DNA of 64,000 nt from an uncultured Bacteroidales bacterium (lineage in GTDB: Bacteria > Bacteroidota > Bacteroidia > Bacteroidales > Paludibacteraceae), in the NCBI GenBank assembly GCA_902779705.1, contig CACZCR010000004.1:13776-77775 (forward strand), given 5' to 3'. A model generated the notes under the pieces. That model saw nothing but the letters and a program-made list of their open reading frames with translations, made no database searches and was not told the DNA's origin. Position 1 is the stretch's first letter. Every line of letters begins with the position of its first letter. Shown here piece by piece: positions 22,824 through 57,087 of this stretch. The translations under genes were made by a program, and so were the position numbers.

Positions 22824-22896
22824 TGTCCCCCGAGAGGCTCGAACTCTCGACCCACTGATTAAGAGTCAGTTGCTCTACCAACTGAGCTAGGGAGAC
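22824..22896 (-). tRNA. tRNA-Lys, anticodon CUU
   Basis: A 73-nt cloverleaf. The acceptor stem pairs GTCTCCC (5', 22896-22890) with GGGGGAC (22831-22825). The D arm has GCTCAGTTGGTAGAGC, and the anticodon stem ACTGA/TCAGT holds loop CTCTTAA with anticodon CTT. The T arm is GAGAGTTCGAGCCTCTC. CCA is not encoded. A strong promoter lies about 60 nt upstream (22963-22994), and a terminator follows. Confidence 0.95.
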
Positions 22897-45633: not shown

Positions 45634-48600
45634 ATGAAAAACTTTTTACAAGTTAATCAGTTATTCGGGACGGTAGGTAGTCCAAATCAGACTGGCGAGA
45701 CACTAACGAGAGAGAATCGGGTCGGACTTATGTCCTATCTTCGTCGGACTATTATGCTACTTTTTGCTGTACTCGTGATGAGTATCGCCAATATCGGTAT
45801 GGCGTGGGGAGCAGGAACGCAAGTTACGTTTACAGCAAATGCTACTTCAGGGCAAAGAGGATACGTGGCGGGTAATGATGTTGATACATTGATAAGGGGG
45901 CAGGTTACACTTAAATTAGATAGTTTGGGATCAAAGACCCAAACAAAACAGATATATAACTCATCTGCGGATAAAGAAGCCTCATGGTGCTTAAGTTCAT
46001 CTTCAACCAGTAACGCGAATAAAAATTATATTGAGTTAAAAGCATCAAGTGGCTATAATATCACTGGAATGCAAATTCGTTTGGCTGCAAATGGGACAAC
46101 TGAAAGTAGATGTATTGCGGTATGCTTTGGCTCTGCATTTTCAATGGCAAATAATTCTGTTTTAGATACTATATCTATCCCTCTTTTAGCGAATAATAAT
46201 GATAATTCTGCATCTCACACAATAACTCTTTCAGGAATCCCTTCAGGAACAGGGTGTATTCGTATATACAAAGTGGTTCGATACGATGGGACAAATAAAA
46301 AATTACTCAATTCAGGGGGGACTCAAATCTGGGCATCTTCATCTCCGCAATCACTGGTTGTCCCTTGGATTAAGGCAACATATGAATCTGTTTCTTCTGG
46401 CTATACTCTGACGGCCTCGCCGACGGTGATAAATCCGATGACGGAGGATAGCAAGACTGGTGCTATAACGACAACAATCACCAATAGTCCGGTGACGGGG
46501 ATTTCGTCTGGAACGACGACATCTACTTCAAGTAATACGTTTACGGTAGCTAAAGCAACACCGGTAACGGTAACGGCTCCTGCAACGGTTGACGGTTCAG
46601 AGGAGGAGTGTGACTATTGTACTTATCGTTTCGATAGTTGGGAAAATATACCGGCCTCTGTGACAGCGGATGTGAGCAATATCCACGCAAAGTATATCAC
46701 GACATATGACCTTGCTTATAATCTGGATGGCGGAGATTGGGCAGATGCATATTCGGCACCGGAGTACTATGTGTATGGTACGGGTGTGACACTGCCGGTA
46801 GCAGCTAATGTTGAAAAAGAAGGTTATAATTTCGATGGTTGGACACTTGATTATGATGATTCGGATATCGAGGAGGTAGATGATGAGACATGGGGAGGAG
46901 TCTCTGTTACGGCTCATTGGAGTTTGGCATGTTCTGATCTGGATGCACCGACGGGATTGGAATGTGTGGATCAGAGTTATAATACTTTGTCGTTTAGTTG
47001 GGATGCAGTAGCAAATGCTTCGTCGTATGATGTAAAATTATGGACAAACTCGACTTGTACCGGTGATCCTGTAAAATCTGCTAACACAACAAATACTACT
47101 TGCCGTATTCGCGATTTGTCCTCTTCGACCACTTATTACTGCAAAGTACAAACAAAGGGTGACGGCTCGACCTACTGCACAAGCGGTGGAACTACGGCTA
47201 CCGCAGCAAGTGGAACAACACTTTCCGGCACTCGTAAGTTTAAGTCAGGAGAACGCATCTATTTCAAGGATGACGATGTGATAGGTGGTGCCTGCATGAA
47301 ATACAGCGGTGATGAGATTTGGGCTGTATTTAACGGAACCGGTGACTGGATTAAAGGGCAGCTAGAATCGGGTGATTGGAATACTGAAGGAGCTATATAT
47401 TACTTTGATGTTCCCGGGGTAGGTCAGGAATATGACTTTGTTATTTTTACCCGTAATGGTTGGGGAATACAAACAGGTAATGAGTCTACCGATATTGGTA
47501 AAAACATGTTTGTCCTAACGAGTTACGATGGGAATAAAACAGTTTCTGGAACTTGGAGTAAATATGCTTCGGGAGCTGCGTTGATAGGCGATTTTAATGA
47601 CTGGGATCCGGATCAAGGAAAGTTCGTTGATGGTAGAGTGATTCTTGATTTGGAAGCCGAAACTGATTATGAGTTTAAAGTGCTGGTTGGTGATGGAACA
47701 GATGACAACAACTATTGGGCTTGTGATTTGTGCTCCTATATAACAAATACAACTTTGCCTGATTGGGCATTATTGTACAAGGCTCAGAGCAATAACTTTG
47801 GTTTAACGACGGGAGAAGCCGGAGAGTATTGTTTCCATTGGAACAACAGTACGCACTATTTGGGCGTATACTATCCGCAGGCACGATTGGAGAAAGGCAA
47901 ATATATTTACTTCGATGCACGCGATAATACTACGTGGACAGGAAACGATGATGACGCTCGTTTCTGGTTCAAATATTATGATTCCAATTCTAATTATCCG
48001 GATGATGCAACGGATTACACTTGTACTAAAGCGAATGCGACAGATACTTGGGTTTATCCGTATGTAGTGCCAGCGAGTGATTATATCGGACAAGTTCAAG
48101 TAAACAGATATAAAAATGGATTGTGGGCGGCAGATGTGGACAAGATTCAAGCGTATACACGTACCTCCTCTCTGCAAAACTGTATTAAGATGGCAAGTGG
48201 TTCGATTTCTGCTGTTTCTTGGACCACTTACTGTCCGCCGATGAATACGCCGTCGTTGAGTGATAATGGAACGACAACATATGCCGGTAACGGAACAGCA
48301 GGAACGCCGTATATCGTAAAGACGGGTGATGATATCAAGGTTCAAGCATCTTCGACATCAACAATTGCGGATCTTAACATGAAGGCCATGTTTGATTTCC
48401 AGGATGATGGTTCTACTGTACAGAATACGACAGCTACCACTTGTACATTTGCTGCATCGAGCACTGACGGTACGGCATATGTATTGACCGTGGATGCGTA
48501 CAATACCTACAATGAGACTAATAGTACCAAGGCAACAAGTTCAACGACCTTGTACTACACGGCCAAGGATATCTATAACATTACCTATAAGTGCGGCTCG

Positions 48601-51600
48601 AATAGTACGGGTGATGATATTGTGGATCATAAGATTCATGGTACAAATATCACTCTGCGTGGAAATACAACCTTCAGTCGTACGGGTTATAACTTGGTAG
48701 GCTGGTCGACGACAGATGGAGGCACAAAAGCGCATAATGTAGGTGCTACTTATTCTACCGATGCCGCTTTGACGCTTTATCCGGTATGGGAAGCAAAGAC
48801 GACGACCATCACGTTAGATCCGAATACATCGGCTCATGGTTCTTCCGGAGATGGAGGCGCAACGGCTACATTCGATAGCGGAACGCTGACTTCTGTATCG
48901 CACACAACGGCGGAAACGGGATATCATTGTGTAGGCTATTTTACTTCGAGTGACGAGATGATCATTACAGCAGAAGGGGCGTTAGTAAAGAACACTACAT
49001 ATACAACGAACGAGGAAACCCCGAAGTGGAAGAGTGAGTTATCAAGTTTGACGCTCTATGCGCACTATGAGATCAATACCTATACTGTGAACATTGCTTC
49101 GAACAATGATTCATATGGAACGGTAAATGTAGCAAGTATTAGTAGTGTGGAGCATGGAGAAGAGGTAAGCATTGATGGTAATGTGCTGACGTTGAACGAA
49201 ACAGATGTGACGGCAACGAAGACAGCAGATGGTGCGGATTATAGTTATGCGTTTAGTGGCTGGAGTGTAAGTAATGGAGATGCTATTACCGGCAATACGA
49301 ATATTACGGCAACGTTTACAGCAACGGCTAAGCAATATAGTGTGACACATTCGCTGACGAATATGACAGCCAGCAGTGGTGCAACGGGTGCCAATGCGGC
49401 TACATATGGCACCAATTACACCGCTACATTGAATGCCAGCAGCGGATACGCTCGTCCTGCGTCCATTACGGTTACTTGCGGAGGAGACGATATCACGGAA
49501 GATTGTACATGGAATAGTTCCACCGGAGCACTCACAATCCCCGGTACGTCTATATTGGGTAATATCACCATTACGGCAGCAGGTGAACTTGTATATACGG
49601 TGACGTTCGAAAGTAATGGTGGTAGTTCTGTCGCTTCGATTACGCAGGCATCGGAAGGAGCATCGATTACGATGCCTAGTGCACCGACATATGCAAGTCA
49701 CACGTTTGTGGATTGGGTTATTGGTTCGACGACCAAGGAAGCCGGCGCAAGTTATACTCCGACGGCTAATGTCACCGCTTACGCAAGATGGAAAGAGACT
49801 TGCGCAGGAGGCGGTGGAGGAAGTACGACGCTGATTTCTTATACAATCACAGCAGAATGTAAGAGCAGTGATCCATGTTCGGAAACGGCAAGCGGAACAC
49901 CCGGAGGAACGGCGTATTTGTACAAAATGTCGTCAAGTAATGATAAATTTAAATTAAATACTGACCCTAAGGATGGTAACCCTGGTTCATATTTCGCCTT
50001 AAAACTCTCTACTGGATATTTCCAAGCGGGCGATGTGCTCACTATGGATGGTAGTAAAGCAATGGAGGTATATACAGGGACACATGGTTCTGGTACTCTA
50101 TTAGCAGCTACATCTGCACCATCGGACGGCGTTATCAGTTACACGCTCCCCAATACGCTTCCTAATAATACAAATGAAATATATGTATATCGTTCAAGTA
50201 GCACATATAACGGAACGTTGACATACATGACCGTTACCCGCGCAGGCGGTGGTAGTGGAACATGCTACTACGTAACCTATGATGGTAACGGAGCAGATGG
50301 CGGTTTGACTTGTGACCCGACGGCATATGCGGCAAATGATGATCCTGAAGTATTGGATAACGGTGATGGCGGTTCAGCATATACCAGATCCAATTACACG
50401 TTTGACGGTTGGTACACAAAAGCAGTCAACGATGGAACAGGAACGGCTTATGCACCAGGTGCAACGATTACGGATATTAATGACAATATAACCCTTTATG
50501 CACAATGGAGAGAAGCTTGTTCGTCTACTCCTGCAGCACCATCCAGTTTGACGAATGGCGCAACGACGACGAATACGCAAGTGGTTACATGGACGGCAAA
50601 CGGAGAGAATACATGGGAAGTATATCATAGTACATCTTCTTCTACGCCGAATACTGATCAGACTCCGACGGCGACCGTTACTTCGGCGACATATACCTTC
50701 ACCGGTTTGACGGCTTCGACGCAGTATTATTGGTGGGCACGTTCAAAATGCGACGCAAGCCATAAGAGCTCTTGGATCGCAGGTACATCATTTACTACGT
50801 CTGCAGCAACATACACCTTGACGGCGACGGCGAAGACAAATATGAAAGGAACGTTTTCGGGTTCGAAGACTATTACCAACAGCCCGGTATCCAGTGTAAC
50901 TGCCGGAACAACTATAGCAACGAGCAGTAATACCTTTACCGTTGGCGGTTCAACAACCGTAGCAGCCCCGGAAACGATAGCCGGCACAGTGGAAGTTGAT
51001 GATGGTGGTACGCCATACAACGCTCTTTGTACATGGCGCTTCTCCAAGTGGAACAACATCGTTACGCCGGTGGCAGGTGATGAGTCGGATATAGAGGCAG
51101 AATATGTTCCTACTTTTGCTATCAACTATATACTAGATGGAGGAACAATCAACGAAGACTATCCTACCTATTATATCTTTACAGATAATGAAGAGGATGA
51201 AATATCATTACCTACGAATGTGACAAAAGCAAACTATACGTTCGACCATTGGGTAGATGCATGGAGCAACACGAGAAGTAAAATTACTTGTGACTATTGG
51301 GGCGATTTTAATTTGACAGCTGTTTGGACGGCTAAGACGAGTCCGGGATCGGGAACAGTAAGCGGAACGACTTCTATATGCTCGGGTGATAATACCGATA
51401 TTACCCTTAGCGCGAGTGTTTCGGGTGCAAGTTATCAACTCTATAAAGGTGAAGATAAAGTAGGTGATGCGAAAGCGGGTACGGGTAGCGCACTGACATG
51501 GAGTGTTTCTGAAATAGGTACATATACCGTGAAAGCGGTTGAGACGGCAACGCACGCTTCGGGTGACATGAGTGGAAGTGTGGTTATTTCGGCATCAACA

Positions 51601-54600
51601 GCAACATCGATTTCTACGCAACCTACGACAGCAGTGAGTGGACATGACGGTGTGGACTTCACGCTTGGTTCAGACTTGGCAGCAACAGGAGAAGGTACGC
51701 TTACATACCAGTGGTATAGTTACACGTCTTCCGACGGCGCAGGTCAAGCAACTGTAGGAAGTGCGACGACAACCAAGACTCTCACCACTTCCAAGGCCGC
51801 GGGCACGTATTACTATAAGGTAGGCGTTATCGGTGCGTGCGGTGAGGTTAAGTCTAACATGATCACTGTGACGATTGATAACGAACACCTCTTGACCTAT
51901 GATGCCGGTTCGGGTTCGGGTGCTCCGAGTGGCAACTGGAAGTCCCCAGGTAGTATGACGCTTCCTGCAGACCTCCCGACACGCAGCGGATATATCTTCT
52001 TGGGTTGGAATACCAAGAATGATGGTACGGGCGACATGTACCAGCCGAGTGGCTCCTTTACAATGCCAAGTTCAGCGACCACACTTTATGCGGCTTGGGC
52101 AAGTCCGTGCTTCACGATAACAGATGCTGCTAGGAGTAGTACATGGAGTGACAAGGCATCTGGAGCTACTATTGAAAGTTCAGATCTTGATGGAACAATA
52201 ACCGGTGGTACAGTTATCAATAGTGGTAGTGTAACTATGACGGCTAATGATACACGAGGAATGGTGTTCAACTCCAACGACAGAGAGATAACCATTACCT
52301 TAACTAATGGTATGTTCCAAGAAGGAACAGTTATTGCTATCGGGGGTAAGACTAACAACTCAAACTCTACAGCATATGGCTTTGCTGTAAGTGGTAATGC
52401 TACAACTCCTGCTACCTACACCACTACAGCTGCAGACTATCAAGATTTTACTGTTCGATATGTAGTAACTGCCGATGATGGTATAGAAGGCACAAGTAGT
52501 TTCGCTCTCAAGCGTGCTAATTCTAACCAAGTATATCTCAAAACAATTTACATTGGTGGATGTATGAGTTGTACGGGCATTACTCCAACGTTGAGTTATA
52601 GTGCTACGACGCTATATGCGTTTGGCGGTACGCCACATGATGCACGTCCAACGCTGACAGGTAACACCGGTAACGGTGATGTAACATATAGTTCCAGCAA
52701 TACGGATGTAGTCACGGTTGATAGTGAGACCGGTTTTGTAACGGCAGTTGGAGCAGGTACGGCGACCGTGACGGCAGTGATAGAGGCTAACGCTGGTTAT
52801 TGCGGTGCGATAAAGAGCGTAGAGTTTACTGTTCCGGCATTGGTTAACCAATCGATACGCGTAGGTAAGAGTACTTCGTGGAATGGAGATGGTAGTGCGG
52901 CTCCGGACATGACGTTCAATGATCCGACAAGTTCTACGTCACAAGTAGCAGTGATTGCTAACAATAGTTATACCTTTGATGCTACAGCGACTTCGGATAA
53001 GGATAACATGACTGCTAAGTTTACCAGTACGGAAACGAGTAAGAACTCAAGTAAATACCTTACTTTGAAGTTTAAGAACGCTACTCACGCAATTAGGTTA
53101 GGTGAGGTTGTCGTTCCAATACAACCTGTAAAAAGCAATGGTAAGGCGCAAGTGGAGATTTACGAGGGGTCTACGCTTAGATTGACATCCTCTGAGGTAA
53201 CAGATATTACTCAGGGTAAACTCAATGACGTACACTTTACATTCGCTTCACCGTACGTATTTGCTGCAAATACAAATATTGAGGTACGACTCTACTTCTA
53301 CGGACAAACCGATGGTTTCCGTCTGGGAACACCATTCTATGTCAATGGTGGTGTGCTGGTAGATCAACGGTTCACAGATGCGAATAGTACCGGTCTATGG
53401 AGTGATCCTGCTAACTGGGACGGCGGTAGTCTGCCGGAGATCTATCATGATGTAGTGATCGAGAAACCGGTTGCGGTAGATATCGCACATGCAACAGCGA
53501 AGAGCATTGTTATCTATAATAATGGAAGCGATAAGACCGGTAAGTTGACAATCCAACCGAATAAAGGTCTTGAGGTGGATGGAACGATACAGAAGACGAC
53601 GGATGGCAGCACCAAAACAGCGACAGGAGAGGCAGACCTCGTGCTTGAGTCCTCGAGCGCTGGTAATGCATCGTTGATCTTCAATAACAGCAACAGTTGT
53701 CAAGCAACGGTACAGATGTACTCGAAAGCATCGATAGTAGGTGAAACATGGAATTGGCAGTATGTTGGAACGCCGTTCACTGGTTCGATTCCTCTGTATA
53801 ACTACTATGGCAGCTGGATGTATAAATGGAATAACGGTGGTTGGGCTGCTGTCAGAGGCGATGACGAATTGGATCCGTTCGTAGGTTACTGTTTGACGCA
53901 GAGCGAAGCTACGACGCACGTCATGGGCGGTACGCTGATAGCTACTGATGGCAATGATCAAGAGATAACGATGAGTGCAAGTAAAGATATGGTACTCGCG
54001 AACTCTTGGACCGCACCGATATATATTGGAGGCTTTACGGAGACAACGTTCACTTCCGAGCCTGCTACAATCTATCTGTTTAATACCGGATCGGCAGAAG
54101 AAGGGTCGACCGCAGGAACAACTGAAGCAGGTACTTATATTACCGTACCGGTTAACTCCGGTCCATACGTAGGAACTGAGTTCATCCCGTCGATGCAAGG
54201 ATTCTTCGTAACAACGAACGGCGGTTCGGCAGGAACGATCACGATGAAGTATGACGAGTTGGTACGTCCTGCGGATAGTCGCGGTATTGTAGCCGGCTCG
54301 ATGAAGGCGCCGAAGCGCATTGAAGAGCGTCCGGAAGTAATGAAGATCCGTGCAGAGGGGTCTGTATATAACGATCGCGTGGTCATCCTCTCTCGTGAGG
54401 ACTTCTCGCAAGGCTTCGACAACGGATGGGACGGTAAGAAGATGACTTTCGGTAATGCTTCACCTTCTGTCTATGTCATCAACGAGCAAGGCGGCTACGA
54501 TGCTGTAAGTGCAATCCCAGAATATGAAGGAACGGTAGTAGGCTTCCGTAAAGGTACGGGAGATGAGGTTTATACGATTTCGTTCAACTATGACGGAGAC

Positions 54601-54867
54601 GTACAGTACTACCTCAATGACCTCAAGGAATATGTTGCTACTCCTATTAACGAAGAGACTGAGTACACGTTCACAAGCGCAGCCGAGGATGCTGAGGCAC
54701 GCTTTATTATCAGCAAAACGCCGATACATAAGACGCCTACAGATATAGATCCGGTTACGGGTGACTGGTCACCGGTTACAGGAGCACGTAAGGTGATAAT
54801 CGACAACAAGATATATATCATCCGTGGAGGCAGAATGTATAATGCAACCGGAGCGTTGGTTAAATAA
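45634..54867 (+). CDS. giant modular surface protein (3077 aa) with InlB-type, FN3 and Ig-like repeats
   Basis: An exported adhesin-like protein. The hydrophobic signal (RRTIMLLFAVLVMSIANIG) lies at about 37-56 after an unusually long N-terminus; ATG 45730 would give a normal one. Modules include InlB/Listeria-Bacteroides repeats (about 353-432, 980-1060, the GYARPASITV-type module near 1260-1330, and several later, with W or HW ends such as NITLYAQW), FN3 domains (about 436-528 and near 1640-1720), a glycogen-binding-like strand set (ALIGDFNDWDPDQG), an Ig/PKD-like pair and a BIG2 domain (YSSSNTDVVTVDSETGFVTA). The last 25 residues (KVIIDNKIYIIRGGRMYNAT) resemble Bacteroidota C-terminal secretion signals. 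Some modules are visibly more A/T-rich, suggesting exchange. Confidence 0.88.
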   Translation: MKNFLQVNQLFGTVGSPNQTGETLTRENRVGLMSYLRRTIMLLFAVLVMSIANIGMAWGAGTQVTFTANATSGQRGYVAGNDVDTLIRGQVTLKLDSLGSKTQTKQIYNSSADKEASWCLSSSSTSNANKNYIELKASSGYNITGMQIRLAANGTTESRCIAVCFGSAFSMANNSVLDTISIPLLANNNDNSASHTITLSGIPSGTGCIRIYKVVRYDGTNKKLLNSGGTQIWASSSPQSLVVPWIKATYESVSSGYTLTASPTVINPMTEDSKTGAITTTITNSPVTGISSGTTTSTSSNTFTVAKATPVTVTAPATVDGSEEECDYCTYRFDSWENIPASVTADVSNIHAKYITTYDLAYNLDGGDWADAYSAPEYYVYGTGVTLPVAANVEKEGYNFDGWTLDYDDSDIEEVDDETWGGVSVTAHWSLACSDLDAPTGLECVDQSYNTLSFSWDAVANASSYDVKLWTNSTCTGDPVKSANTTNTTCRIRDLSSSTTYYCKVQTKGDGSTYCTSGGTTATAASGTTLSGTRKFKSGERIYFKDDDVIGGACMKYSGDEIWAVFNGTGDWIKGQLESGDWNTEGAIYYFDVPGVGQEYDFVIFTRNGWGIQTGNESTDIGKNMFVLTSYDGNKTVSGTWSKYASGAALIGDFNDWDPDQGKFVDGRVILDLEAETDYEFKVLVGDGTDDNNYWACDLCSYITNTTLPDWALLYKAQSNNFGLTTGEAGEYCFHWNNSTHYLGVYYPQARLEKGKYIYFDARDNTTWTGNDDDARFWFKYYDSNSNYPDDATDYTCTKANATDTWVYPYVVPASDYIGQVQVNRYKNGLWAADVDKIQAYTRTSSLQNCIKMASGSISAVSWTTYCPPMNTPSLSDNGTTTYAGNGTAGTPYIVKTGDDIKVQASSTSTIADLNMKAMFDFQDDGSTVQNTTATTCTFAASSTDGTAYVLTVDAYNTYNETNSTKATSSTTLYYTAKDIYNITYKCGSNSTGDDIVDHKIHGTNITLRGNTTFSRTGYNLVGWSTTDGGTKAHNVGATYSTDAALTLYPVWEAKTTTITLDPNTSAHGSSGDGGATATFDSGTLTSVSHTTAETGYHCVGYFTSSDEMIITAEGALVKNTTYTTNEETPKWKSELSSLTLYAHYEINTYTVNIASNNDSYGTVNVASISSVEHGEEVSIDGNVLTLNETDVTATKTADGADYSYAFSGWSVSNGDAITGNTNITATFTATAKQYSVTHSLTNMTASSGATGANAATYGTNYTATLNASSGYARPASITVTCGGDDITEDCTWNSSTGALTIPGTSILGNITITAAGELVYTVTFESNGGSSVASITQASEGASITMPSAPTYASHTFVDWVIGSTTKEAGASYTPTANVTAYARWKETCAGGGGGSTTLISYTITAECKSSDPCSETASGTPGGTAYLYKMSSSNDKFKLNTDPKDGNPGSYFALKLSTGYFQAGDVLTMDGSKAMEVYTGTHGSGTLLAATSAPSDGVISYTLPNTLPNNTNEIYVYRSSSTYNGTLTYMTVTRAGGGSGTCYYVTYDGNGADGGLTCDPTAYAANDDPEVLDNGDGGSAYTRSNYTFDGWYTKAVNDGTGTAYAPGATITDINDNITLYAQWREACSSTPAAPSSLTNGATTTNTQVVTWTANGENTWEVYHSTSSSTPNTDQTPTATVTSATYTFTGLTASTQYYWWARSKCDASHKSSWIAGTSFTTSAATYTLTATAKTNMKGTFSGSKTITNSPVSSVTAGTTIATSSNTFTVGGSTTVAAPETIAGTVEVDDGGTPYNALCTWRFSKWNNIVTPVAGDESDIEAEYVPTFAINYILDGGTINEDYPTYYIFTDNEEDEISLPTNVTKANYTFDHWVDAWSNTRSKITCDYWGDFNLTAVWTAKTSPGSGTVSGTTSICSGDNTDITLSASVSGASYQLYKGEDKVGDAKAGTGSALTWSVSEIGTYTVKAVETATHASGDMSGSVVISASTATSISTQPTTAVSGHDGVDFTLGSDLAATGEGTLTYQWYSYTSSDGAGQATVGSATTTKTLTTSKAAGTYYYKVGVIGACGEVKSNMITVTIDNEHLLTYDAGSGSGAPSGNWKSPGSMTLPADLPTRSGYIFLGWNTKNDGTGDMYQPSGSFTMPSSATTLYAAWASPCFTITDAARSSTWSDKASGATIESSDLDGTITGGTVINSGSVTMTANDTRGMVFNSNDREITITLTNGMFQEGTVIAIGGKTNNSNSTAYGFAVSGNATTPATYTTTAADYQDFTVRYVVTADDGIEGTSSFALKRANSNQVYLKTIYIGGCMSCTGITPTLSYSATTLYAFGGTPHDARPTLTGNTGNGDVTYSSSNTDVVTVDSETGFVTAVGAGTATVTAVIEANAGYCGAIKSVEFTVPALVNQSIRVGKSTSWNGDGSAAPDMTFNDPTSSTSQVAVIANNSYTFDATATSDKDNMTAKFTSTETSKNSSKYLTLKFKNATHAIRLGEVVVPIQPVKSNGKAQVEIYEGSTLRLTSSEVTDITQGKLNDVHFTFASPYVFAANTNIEVRLYFYGQTDGFRLGTPFYVNGGVLVDQRFTDANSTGLWSDPANWDGGSLPEIYHDVVIEKPVAVDIAHATAKSIVIYNNGSDKTGKLTIQPNKGLEVDGTIQKTTDGSTKTATGEADLVLESSSAGNASLIFNNSNSCQATVQMYSKASIVGETWNWQYVGTPFTGSIPLYNYYGSWMYKWNNGGWAAVRGDDELDPFVGYCLTQSEATTHVMGGTLIATDGNDQEITMSASKDMVLANSWTAPIYIGGFTETTFTSEPATIYLFNTGSAEEGSTAGTTEAGTYITVPVNSGPYVGTEFIPSMQGFFVTTNGGSAGTITMKYDELVRPADSRGIVAGSMKAPKRIEERPEVMKIRAEGSVYNDRVVILSREDFSQGFDNGWDGKKMTFGNASPSVYVINEQGGYDAVSAIPEYEGTVVGFRKGTGDEVYTISFNYDGDVQYYLNDLKEYVATPINEETEYTFTSAAEDAEARFIISKTPIHKTPTDIDPVTGDWSPVTGARKVIIDNKIYIIRGGRMYNATGALVK
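54749..54785 (+). repeat. in-frame CCGGTTAC repeat near the end of the giant gene
   Basis: CCGGTTACGGGTGACTGG and CACCGGTTACAGG encode PVTGDWSPVTGA just before the C-terminal signal-like domain. Same G/T-rich flavour as 54958-54988 and the dnaE array. Confidence 0.65.
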
Positions 54868-54868
54868 T

Positions 54869-54912
54869 TGTTTAAAAGAGTAAAAGAATGAAAGAATTAA
54901 AGAATGAAAGGA
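54869..54912 (+). repeat. AAAGAATGAAAG repeats between the giant gene and its small partner
   Basis: AAAAGAGTAAAAG, AATGAAAG, AATTAAAG and AATGAAAGG follow one another between the two genes. Confidence 0.6.
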
Positions 54913-54920
54913 TCAACACT

Positions 54921-55334
54921 ATGAAAGCAATTATCAAAACCAATATAGCATTTGTAAGGGTTATGGGTTACCGGTTATGGGTTATGGGACTGTTGCTGTG
55001 GTTGGCACTGCCGATCATGGCGCAGCCGCAGACCTTCAACGGCGCTACTGCTCCGCAGGTTACATTCCAATCCACCAGTACAATGCAAGGGTCGGGGAGT
55101 GCATACTCATCTAAACCTATGTTGAATAGCGACGGAATGGCTGTGTATAACGGAGCATCTTACGGGCCTAATAAGGCAAAAAAAGACAATACTCCGGGTA
55201 CTCCATCTACGCCGGGTCAAGGAAAAGAAGAGTACCAATTCCCTATCGGCGACCCGGTGTTGCCGTTGACGCTGATGTGCTTGCTGGCTGCGGGAGTGGT
55301 ATATCTCCGGCGACGAAAAATGGCACAAGAGTAA
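54921..55334 (+). CDS. small exported protein with C-terminal PIGD motif, membrane helix and Arg tail
   Basis: A 137-aa protein. The signal peptide (LWVMGLLLWLALPIMAQ) leads into a short Ser/Thr/Gly-rich region (TFNGATAPQVTFQSTSTMQG) and a Pro/Lys linker. The end is FPIGDPVLPLTLMCLLAAGV followed by VYLRRRKMAQE: a short motif, a hydrophobic helix and a basic cluster. That three-part layout is like PEP-CTERM or LPXTG sorting signals, and I recall similar PIGD endings beside large surface proteins in this order. Four 7-bp repeats encode part of the signal peptide (RVMGYRLWVMG). It lies 53 bases after the giant gene and may assist or accompany it. An earlier ATG at 54888 lies in a repeat stretch and is less likely. 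Confidence 0.7.
   Translation: MKAIIKTNIAFVRVMGYRLWVMGLLLWLALPIMAQPQTFNGATAPQVTFQSTSTMQGSGSAYSSKPMLNSDGMAVYNGASYGPNKAKKDNTPGTPSTPGQGKEEYQFPIGDPVLPLTLMCLLAAGVVYLRRRKMAQE
54958..54988 (+). repeat. GGGTTAT repeats encoding part of a signal peptide
   Basis: GGGTTAT, GGGTTAC, CGGTTAT, GGGTTAT and GGG run head to tail with a 7-base period. Confidence 0.9.
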
Positions 55335-55379
55335 GCAAAAGCTCTTTTTTATAAAAGAGTTATTTCATGATATTTGTGG

Positions 55380-55415
55380 CTCCTGCGGTACGTGAGTATA
55401 GCAGGAGTTTTTTTT
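55380..55415 (+). terminator. terminator after the small PIGD-protein gene
   Basis: CTCCTGC (55380-55386) pairs with GCAGGAG (55401-55407), followed by eight T. Confidence 0.85.
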
Positions 55416-55465
55416 GTTGGTTGCGCGATATTTCGGAGTGGAGAGAGTGTGTCGAGAGTGGGTTA

Positions 55466-55520
55466 AGAACTAAATAAGAACCAAATAACAACTAAATAAG
55501 AACTAAAGAAGAACTAAAGA
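55466..55520. repeat. AAGAACTAAAT repeats (11 bp)
   Basis: Four to five copies of AAGAACTAAAT with small changes stand in a non-coding gap. Confidence 0.85.
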
Positions 55521-55548
55521 TTTGTAGTACGTTCGCGTCCTGCTCGTC

Positions 55549-55672
55549 GGCGGTGGCTTGTTAAAAAAGAATCCGTACTCGGATTAGGTTAACCGCACCG
55601 CCTCCTCTCCCCAAGGATTGGAAATCCTCGGGGGCCCCAATTAAGGGCGCTTTATGCAAGCATAAGCCACCC
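55549..55672. other. structured non-coding element with three consecutive hairpins
   Basis: Hairpin A (55549-55602): GGCGGTG pairs with CACCGCC, GTTAA with TTAAC and AATCCG with CGGATT around a TACT loop. Hairpin B (55609-55633): CCCC/GGGG and AGGATT/AATCCT. Hairpin C (55645-55672): GGG/CCC and GCTT-ATG/CAT-AAGC. Seven T follow at 55680-55686. On the minus strand the inner stem of hairpin A is followed by CTTTTTT, a good terminator, so a small RNA read leftwards is possible. No protein frame fits. The rest of the 490-base gap holds only the 11-bp repeats and the next promoter. Confidence 0.55.
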
Positions 55673-55728
55673 TCAACTCTTTTTTTATAATGAGTTTAAC
55701 TCATTTTCGGCGAAAAATGGCACTTAAA

Positions 55729-55760
55729 TTTGCGTATGTGCAATTTTTGTCGTATATTTG
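55729..55760 (+). promoter_or_regulatory. Bacteroidetes promoter for the TPR/FISUMP gene
   Basis: TTTG at 55729-55732 and TATATTTG at 55753-55760, spacer 20. Confidence 0.85.
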
Positions 55761-55824
55761 TGCCCGAAATTGGAATACTAGTGACAAATATAATCATATG
55801 CAAATTAGGAATTTAAAATATATC

Positions 55825-57087
55825 ATGAAACAAATCAACAAATCGATTGTATCTATTGGTCTAATGGCTTTGATGCTTGTGTTTAGCGCCCAGATCTCGG
55901 CGAAGGACATCACGTATCCTTGTCAAAAACTGATCGAAAAAGGAGAGTATGACAAAGCAAAGGAGTCTTTGTCTAAACTGAGAGATAAAGATAACAACAA
56001 CTGTGAGGTGCACTATGGCTTCAGTAAGTTCTATATGTCTAAGGATTCTAGATATAGCTTAAGTGAGGCCAATAAGAGCATGAAAAAAGCGGAGGAGTGT
56101 TTCCAAAAAGCAGATGAGAAAACACTTAAGAAACTCCAAAAAATCGGATATAGTGCCGATTTGTTCAAAGAAGAGTTTAGCAAGATCCGTCAAATGGCAC
56201 TCCAGGATATTCAAACCCAAAAGACTGTAGCCTCCTGCGAAGTGTTCTTAAATATTTTCCCGGATGACGAGGAAGTGCCACAAGTAAAGAACCAACAGTA
56301 CAAGTTTGCCTTTGCTGATGCGCAAAAATTAAACACATTGAAAGCATATGAGGATTTTCTATTCAATTATCCCCAAGCTCCGCAATATGCTCAAGCACAG
56401 AGCACCGTTTATGAGATGGCTTACGCTGAGACCCGGAAATTAAATACGGCGAAAGCATTTGCGGATTTTGTAGACAAATATCCCGAAGCTCCGCAATATG
56501 CTCAAGCGCAGAGCACTCTCTATGAGTTGGCTTATGCTGAGGCACTGGAAATTAATACCGAAGCAAATTATCGTCAATATATTGAGTATTATCCAGAGAG
56601 TCCGAAGATAGATGAGGTGCGACAATTGGCAGAGAAGGCAAAAATAGCAGAAGCGAAAGCCGCTTTAAGGGCAAAAGGCTACGTGGATATGGAATTGCCA
56701 AGTGGAACAATATGGAAAAACCGAAATGAGGAAGAAAAATATTATACCTACGAAGAGGCTATTTCGAAATTCAAAAACGAATTGCCAACAAAGGAGCAGT
56801 TTCAAGAATTGATAGATAAATGCACCTGGACTTGGACCGGAAAAGGATATGAAGTGGTAGGACCAAATGGAGAGTCTATATATCTGCCGGCAGATGGCTT
56901 ACGCTATTGTGGAGGAAATATATGGGGAGGCATGGGTACGTACGGCTGGTATTGGACCGTTACGCCTTTTGACCATCAGAAAGCATACATTCTTGGCTTT
57001 AGCTCGAGCTTTATGGATGTGGGGGAAAACAACCGTTGCGCCGGTCGGTCTGTCCGACTTGTCATTAATAAGTCAGAATCGAAATAA
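55825..57087 (+). CDS. secreted TPR-like protein with C-terminal FISUMP-like domain
   Basis: A 420-aa exported protein. The signal peptide is SIVSIGLMALMLVFSAQISA. A helical tetratricopeptide-like region follows (CQKLIEKGEYDKAKESLSKL, NNCEVHYGFSKFY). The middle has two near-copies of a 38-residue unit (FADFVDKYPEAPQYAQAQST, LYELAYAEA) from about 205 to 282. The C-terminal 115 residues read GYVDMELPSGTIWKNRN, LPTKEQFQELIDKCTWTWTG, YGWYWTVTPF and RCAGRSVRLV, matching the FISUMP (major paralogous) domain of Fibrobacter and Bacteroidota. ATG 55825 follows the promoter by 65 bases; the longer frame crosses the promoter. Function unknown. Confidence 0.82.
   Translation: MKQINKSIVSIGLMALMLVFSAQISAKDITYPCQKLIEKGEYDKAKESLSKLRDKDNNNCEVHYGFSKFYMSKDSRYSLSEANKSMKKAEECFQKADEKTLKKLQKIGYSADLFKEEFSKIRQMALQDIQTQKTVASCEVFLNIFPDDEEVPQVKNQQYKFAFADAQKLNTLKAYEDFLFNYPQAPQYAQAQSTVYEMAYAETRKLNTAKAFADFVDKYPEAPQYAQAQSTLYELAYAEALEINTEANYRQYIEYYPESPKIDEVRQLAEKAKIAEAKAALRAKGYVDMELPSGTIWKNRNEEEKYYTYEEAISKFKNELPTKEQFQELIDKCTWTWTGKGYEVVGPNGESIYLPADGLRYCGGNIWGGMGTYGWYWTVTPFDHQKAYILGFSSSFMDVGENNRCAGRSVRLVINKSESK

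Follow-up and report, generated by a model that had tools for sequence, protein, structure and literature searches.

The window, a 64,000-nucleotide stretch of DNA from an uncultured Bacteroidales bacterium of the family Paludibacteraceae, contains a gap between a gene for a 148-aa protein and a downstream gene, in which an initial annotation had noticed three successive hairpins with compound stems at 55549-55672 and proposed a candidate new structured RNA. The 148-aa protein follows a repetitive, secreted-looking protein of 3077 aa (45634-54867) and its end, a hydrophobic stretch with RRRK, recalls a sorting signal. The gap is indeed free of genes, save for the start of an open reading frame at 55690. 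At the Rfam gathering score, only a tRNA at 22824-22896 was detected in the 64-kb window and nothing in the hairpin region, in agreement with the annotation's statement that no known RNA family could be recognized. Folding of 55549-55672 gave -48.2 kcal/mol (z -3.46) on the plus strand and -54.5 kcal/mol (z -3.66) on the minus strand, and none of 200 shuffled sequences was equally stable on either strand, confirming the presence of the hairpins and their helices. The features of the locus are as follows.

54888-55334: upstream gene, encoding the 148-aa protein and ending at 55334
55380-55415, plus strand: CTCCTGC...GCAGGAG with eight T after it, seen by direct reading of the sequence; likely intrinsic terminator for the upstream gene
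55464-55518, plus strand: 11-bp minisatellite TAAGAACTAAA, found by repeat search, separate from the element and itself dispersed
55543-55639, plus strand: whole dispersed two-hairpin element of about 97 nt, a type I copy, matching the covariance model with 112.2 bits (E 6.8e-28), this copy being one of the six sequences from which the model was built
55545-55548, plus strand: unpaired CGTC tag, identical in every one of the 61 aligned type I copies
55549-55602, plus strand: hairpin 1, compound, from RNA folding
55549-55555/55596-55602, plus strand: stem A, 7 bp, pairing kept via changes on both sides
between stems A and B: internal loop GCTTG/CCG
55560-55564/55589-55593, plus strand: stem B, 5 bp, pairing likewise kept via changes on both sides
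between stems B and C: second internal loop
55570-55575/55580-55585, plus strand: stem C, 6 bp, highly variable in sequence among copies, with the fold retained
55603-55608, plus strand: linker TCCTCT, four positions invariant in 61 copies
55609-55633, plus strand: hairpin 2, the constant 3' module CCCC-A-AGGATT...AATCCT-C-GGGG, 4+6 bp (55609-55619/55623-55633)
55634-55639, plus strand: C-rich tail, n-YYYY-(A/G), from the alignment of 61 copies
55645-55672, plus strand: third hairpin, part of a different, promoter-associated repeat
55729-55760, plus strand: Bacteroidales promoter TTTG-N20-TATATTTG of the downstream gene, from a pattern scan
55826: likely start codon of the downstream gene; its reading frame is open back to 55690, ahead of the 55729 promoter

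The third hairpin occurs without the element at two other loci (L008 and L231) and in truncated form at L232, and the same promoter-proximal sequence then follows. Since the minisatellite, the element and the stretch from about 55645 onwards recur independently at different places, the three hairpins belong to two unrelated adjacent repeats, and a single three-hairpin RNA, as first proposed, was rejected. The promoter-associated repeat (55645-55760 in the window; L008, L231 and L232) consists of a TTATGCAAGCATAA hairpin, an AACTC...GAGTT hairpin, a GGCGAAAAATGCACTT block and a -33/-7 promoter; it recurs upstream of several genes of the same genome and is possibly a shared promoter or regulon signal. 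Minisatellites of 11 bp resembling TAAGAACTAAA are also dispersed through the genus (L003-L007, L017, L020, L022-L024, L031, L034 and L035).

The pattern scan of 55300-55850 found a single full promoter match, that at 55729, and no consensus promoter between the upstream terminator and the element, nor any full consensus promoter able to transcribe the copy in the window. With a terminator upstream and the only full promoter downstream, this copy most likely lacks a promoter of its own and is probably a passive insertion in a silent gap. Thus the proposed new structured RNA was well founded as to novelty, with no Rfam match, and as to structure, which covariation supports, but the RNA part finds no support for this copy, which has no upstream promoter and belongs to a family dispersed in unrelated contexts.

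The element is a dispersed repeat of one genus. The query region gave 16 local matches in its own genome, among them several partial or near-complete copies, of which the best is 96% identical over 97 nt. With a covariance model built from six copies, the element was detected in 103 of the 121 genomes searched from its genus of rumen and gut Paludibacteraceae, at 1-26 copies each. Genomes rich in the element include G126, G132 and G154; G011, G033 and G051 are near-complete and gave no match. In a family-level sample, the matches comprised nine genomes of this genus plus two that belong to two other genera, and an order-level sample of 393 genomes gave two matches only, both in this genus; the model thus found no copy in the sampled Bacteroidales outside the family. 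The named records with the element are rumen and gut Bacteroidales, several of them labelled Paludibacteraceae. One exact pattern of the 3' module had no match in viral contigs, and searches of the open-access literature found no description of the element. Most of the copies inspected stand alone; close pairs occur occasionally (L242, L256 and L002). At L177 (about 5000, minus strand), a second insertion has split a copy, falling between stem A and the 3' module.

From 5' to 3', the element consists of the CGTC tag, the compound hairpin, the CTCCTCT linker, the constant 3' hairpin and the C-rich tail. It is built of two modules, a variable 5' hairpin and a constant 3' hairpin: hairpin 2 and the tail are common to at least five other types of 5' hairpin, and types II-VI, with their different 5' hairpins, start with TCGC rather than TCGTC. 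The ends of the element are not complementary: terminal inverted repeats are absent. The element forms two separate hairpins.

The covariance search in related genomes, which the initial annotation had itself named as a check, revealed very strong covariation. Covariation was assessed at 20 pairs in a MAFFT alignment of 61 distinct copies that was not fitted to the structure. Standard pairs occupied 95.9% of cells versus 76.7 ± 0.7 after shuffling, both-sided changes were found in 18 of the 20 pairs and the covariation score was 0.551 versus 0.184. The comparison is somewhat favoured, since the search model already incorporates this fold, which had itself been derived from members of the alignment; so large an effect is beyond what this circularity explains. 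In the hairpin 2 helix, 96.4% of cells were paired and nine of ten pairs had both-sided changes. The structure is conserved, and the sequence comparison strongly supports that the fold is under selection.

These data also bear on the reading that unrelated intrinsic terminators or chance hairpins had been lumped together by the model. The region does hold one minus-strand terminator-like site, and a few copies carry a TTTT tail after hairpin 2. However, the CGTC tag and the linker positions are invariant in 61 copies, and only 41-53% of cells remained paired when the partners were slid by 1-3 columns. The minus-strand terminator of the initial annotation, a stem at 55585-55570 followed by CTTTTTT, is present in the window but is not conserved, its A-run (the minus-strand T-run) being missing in 84 of 87 copies and kept in three, and 0.7 such sites are expected in the region by chance; a conserved terminator on this strand was rejected. 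Invariant unpaired positions together with covariation largely refute this reading, which we regard as almost certainly wrong.

Copies are inserted at many unrelated sites, including coding sequences and regulatory RNAs. In relatives, in-frame copies were found in the genes which we take, by recognition of their sequences, to be the conserved enzyme genes dapB (three lineages: L079, L080/L211 and L149/L193), trmO (L070) and mfd (L173). At the dapB and mfd sites the element is missing in other members of the genus; in mfd it replaces about 21 nt of the empty allele and is not a clean addition. The dapB insertion site is a hypermutable loop in a core enzyme, and in other species (L192, L194, L195, L207, L212, L213 and L216) it holds an in-frame (AATTAAAA)-like minisatellite instead. 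Copies also lie inside cobalamin riboswitches in two genomes, that of the window and another, with both riboswitches still above the Rfam gathering score.

Two kinds of site are preferred by the 5' end of the element. In 15 of 87 type I copies, it lies at most 2 nt from a mature tRNA end, 11 of them antisense at the tRNA 5' end and four sense at the 3' end. In a set of all types that partly overlaps with these 87 copies, 20 of 91 copies lie within 6 nt of a mature tRNA end, none via the element's 3' end. Not all of these tRNA counts are independent events because some copies are probably orthologous insertions (e.g., the tRNA-Ser copies L081 and L091). The second kind of site is the -7 promoter box: TAnnTTTG occurs within 20 nt before 13 of the 87 type I copies compared with 1.6% of random positions, and its last G is the first base of the element in eight of the 13.

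Such promoter-proximal copies, several of which are followed by a start codon within about 30 nt, would be expected of a functional RNA family whose fold is selected at the RNA level and which acts as a 5' leader, in the processing or stability of tRNAs, or as a small RNA. The strong covariation and one copy between tRNA-Gly and RNase P RNA point in the same direction. However, neither the neighbouring gene nor the orientation is constant, tRNA-docked copies occur on both strands relative to the tRNA, some copies are in frame within proteins, and the window copy has no promoter and lies behind a terminator. We therefore consider a functional RNA family unlikely; the element is probably tolerated rather than used in transcripts, with use at some 5' leaders being possible.

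The junctions have clear preferences. Of 78 copies, 75 have a pyrimidine (C or T) immediately before the 5' junction. The preference for C persists where the copy adjoins neither a tRNA nor a promoter (48 of 61 copies), and the 3' flank is A-rich. Among 78 copies, flanking repeats indicative of a target-site duplication were no longer than expected from mismatched flanks, and no flanking inverted repeats were found above expectation. With neither target duplication nor terminal inverted repeats, the element is unlikely to be an ordinary DDE-type MITE. General insertion beside upstream hairpins was rejected, as the upstream folding energy of non-tRNA copies (-11.4) was similar to that of the control (-11.5).

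In composite trailer units, the element is enclosed by two copies of a tRNA or 5S 3' end, one inverted and one direct, together with terminators (L182 1200-1650, L178 1600-1850, L106 5400-5650, L049 1358-1640 and others). The units are tandem or palindromic, and those of L182 are repeated in tandem. No gene is consistently found beside the copies, the most recurrent ORF cluster being present at 12 of 239 loci. Following up this cluster pointed to a set of small multi-copy genes, which encode an unnamed protein of about 130 aa without a Pfam match, a DUF6486-like small protein and DUF5675. A gene of this set was found at 37 of 240 element loci compared with one of 60 control loci, which itself bears an element. 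These genes are frequently 5-20 nt from the 3' end of the element (e.g., L002 1962-2348 and 1600-1806; L069 439-1466). The gene for the ~130-aa protein, whose structure model is partly confident (mean pLDDT 68), has up to 25 copies per genome and is often at contig ends.

The association with these genes, and the tandem units in which tRNA-Phe or 5S 3' ends recur with a terminator and the element (L182, L178 and L106), would suit cassette-like recombination sites comparable to integron attC, with the adjacent small genes as cargo. But most copies are single and dispersed, and invariance is seen at CGTC and in the CTCCTCT linker, not at attC core sites. Moreover, among 29 loci picked by the gene alone only five have the element, so that the gene is not an obligate partner. 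Cassette sites are thus a very unlikely explanation.

Taken together, 55543-55639 is most likely a copy of a mobile palindromic element, short and non-autonomous, which has become widespread in one Paludibacteraceae genus; its mobility is suggested by its distribution across the sequenced genomes. We propose that a trans-acting enzyme would recognize the element as a folded single strand and that the fold would be kept for this recognition. Insertion may take place where DNA is single-stranded or folded, for example at palindromes, in open promoters or where a tRNA gene has its foot. Several observations speak against a mobile element. Many copies are in 5' leaders just past a promoter, which is equally expected of a cis-acting RNA; passive decay alone would not keep compensatory changes in old copies; and no mobilizing enzyme was found in the search for Y1 transposases in the genome itself, nor is the mfd copy a clean addition. 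Mobilization by a Y1/RAYT (IS200/IS605) enzyme was rejected for this genome, which is 98% complete and lacks PF01797 while control families were detected. The element may alternatively be a selfish one that uses its fold for precise insertion at mature tRNA ends and open promoters, possibly via an RNA or ssDNA intermediate and tRNA-processing or repair enzymes, with exchangeable 5' modules on the constant 3' module. This version is quite unlikely; if true, it would make the element a bacterial counterpart of tRNA-targeting retroelements.

Classical bacterial MITEs such as Correia/NEMIS, ERIC and RUP are short, dispersed, foldable and non-autonomous. The element shares these properties but has neither their terminal inverted repeats nor their target-site duplication. 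Rickettsia palindromic elements (RPEs) are folded sequences of about 100-150 bp that occur in one genus between genes, in frame in conserved proteins and inside RNA genes (PMC2229807). Together with the CGTC-tagged REPs, RPEs are the known elements most similar in kind to the one described here: RPEs and the element are both dispersed in one genus, intergenic, in frame in proteins and inside RNAs (regulatory ones for the element), with no known enzyme (PMC2229807). However, the element belongs to another phylum and, rather than having a terminal inverted repeat that forms one long hairpin, has two distinct hairpins, of which the 3' one is constant and the 5' one exists in alternative versions. 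Docking at mature tRNA ends and -7 boxes is a property of the element that does not appear in the RPE description consulted (PMC2229807).

CGTC-tagged REPs, which include RPE-4 and RPE-6, have no dedicated transposase and also occur within genes; they are 20-40 bp long with one stem of 8-9 bp whose first pairs are A-T, and are often head-to-head dimers (PMC3733652). The element resembles them in carrying CGTC at one end (all 61 type I copies), in the C-rich tail usually ending in A or G and in the intragenic copies. It differs in its length of about 97 nt and its two hairpins, and probably also in arrangement, the inspected copies being mostly single, thus falling outside the size and single-hairpin definition of these REPs; in addition, stem A begins with G-C, G-C in most copies rather than with A-T, and types II-VI start with TCGC instead of TCGTC. 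CIR repeats of Caulobacter and Brucella, of about 110 bp, are similar in size and in having two hairpin arms joined by a linker, but they expose a GANTC methylation motif in a loop (PMC2229807), which is not among the invariant positions of the element, and belong to another phylum.

With this work, a family of the Bacteroidales gains a group of mobile palindromic elements supported by covariation. As in Rickettsia, core enzymes are interrupted in frame, yet here in rumen bacteria of another phylum. For the Rickettsia guanylate kinase, enzyme activity with and without the insert has been compared. They also caution that strong covariation by itself is no proof of a functional RNA gene. How palindromic repeats that lack a transposase move is a long-standing question, and the precise docking at tRNA ends and -7 boxes provides a concrete clue to it.
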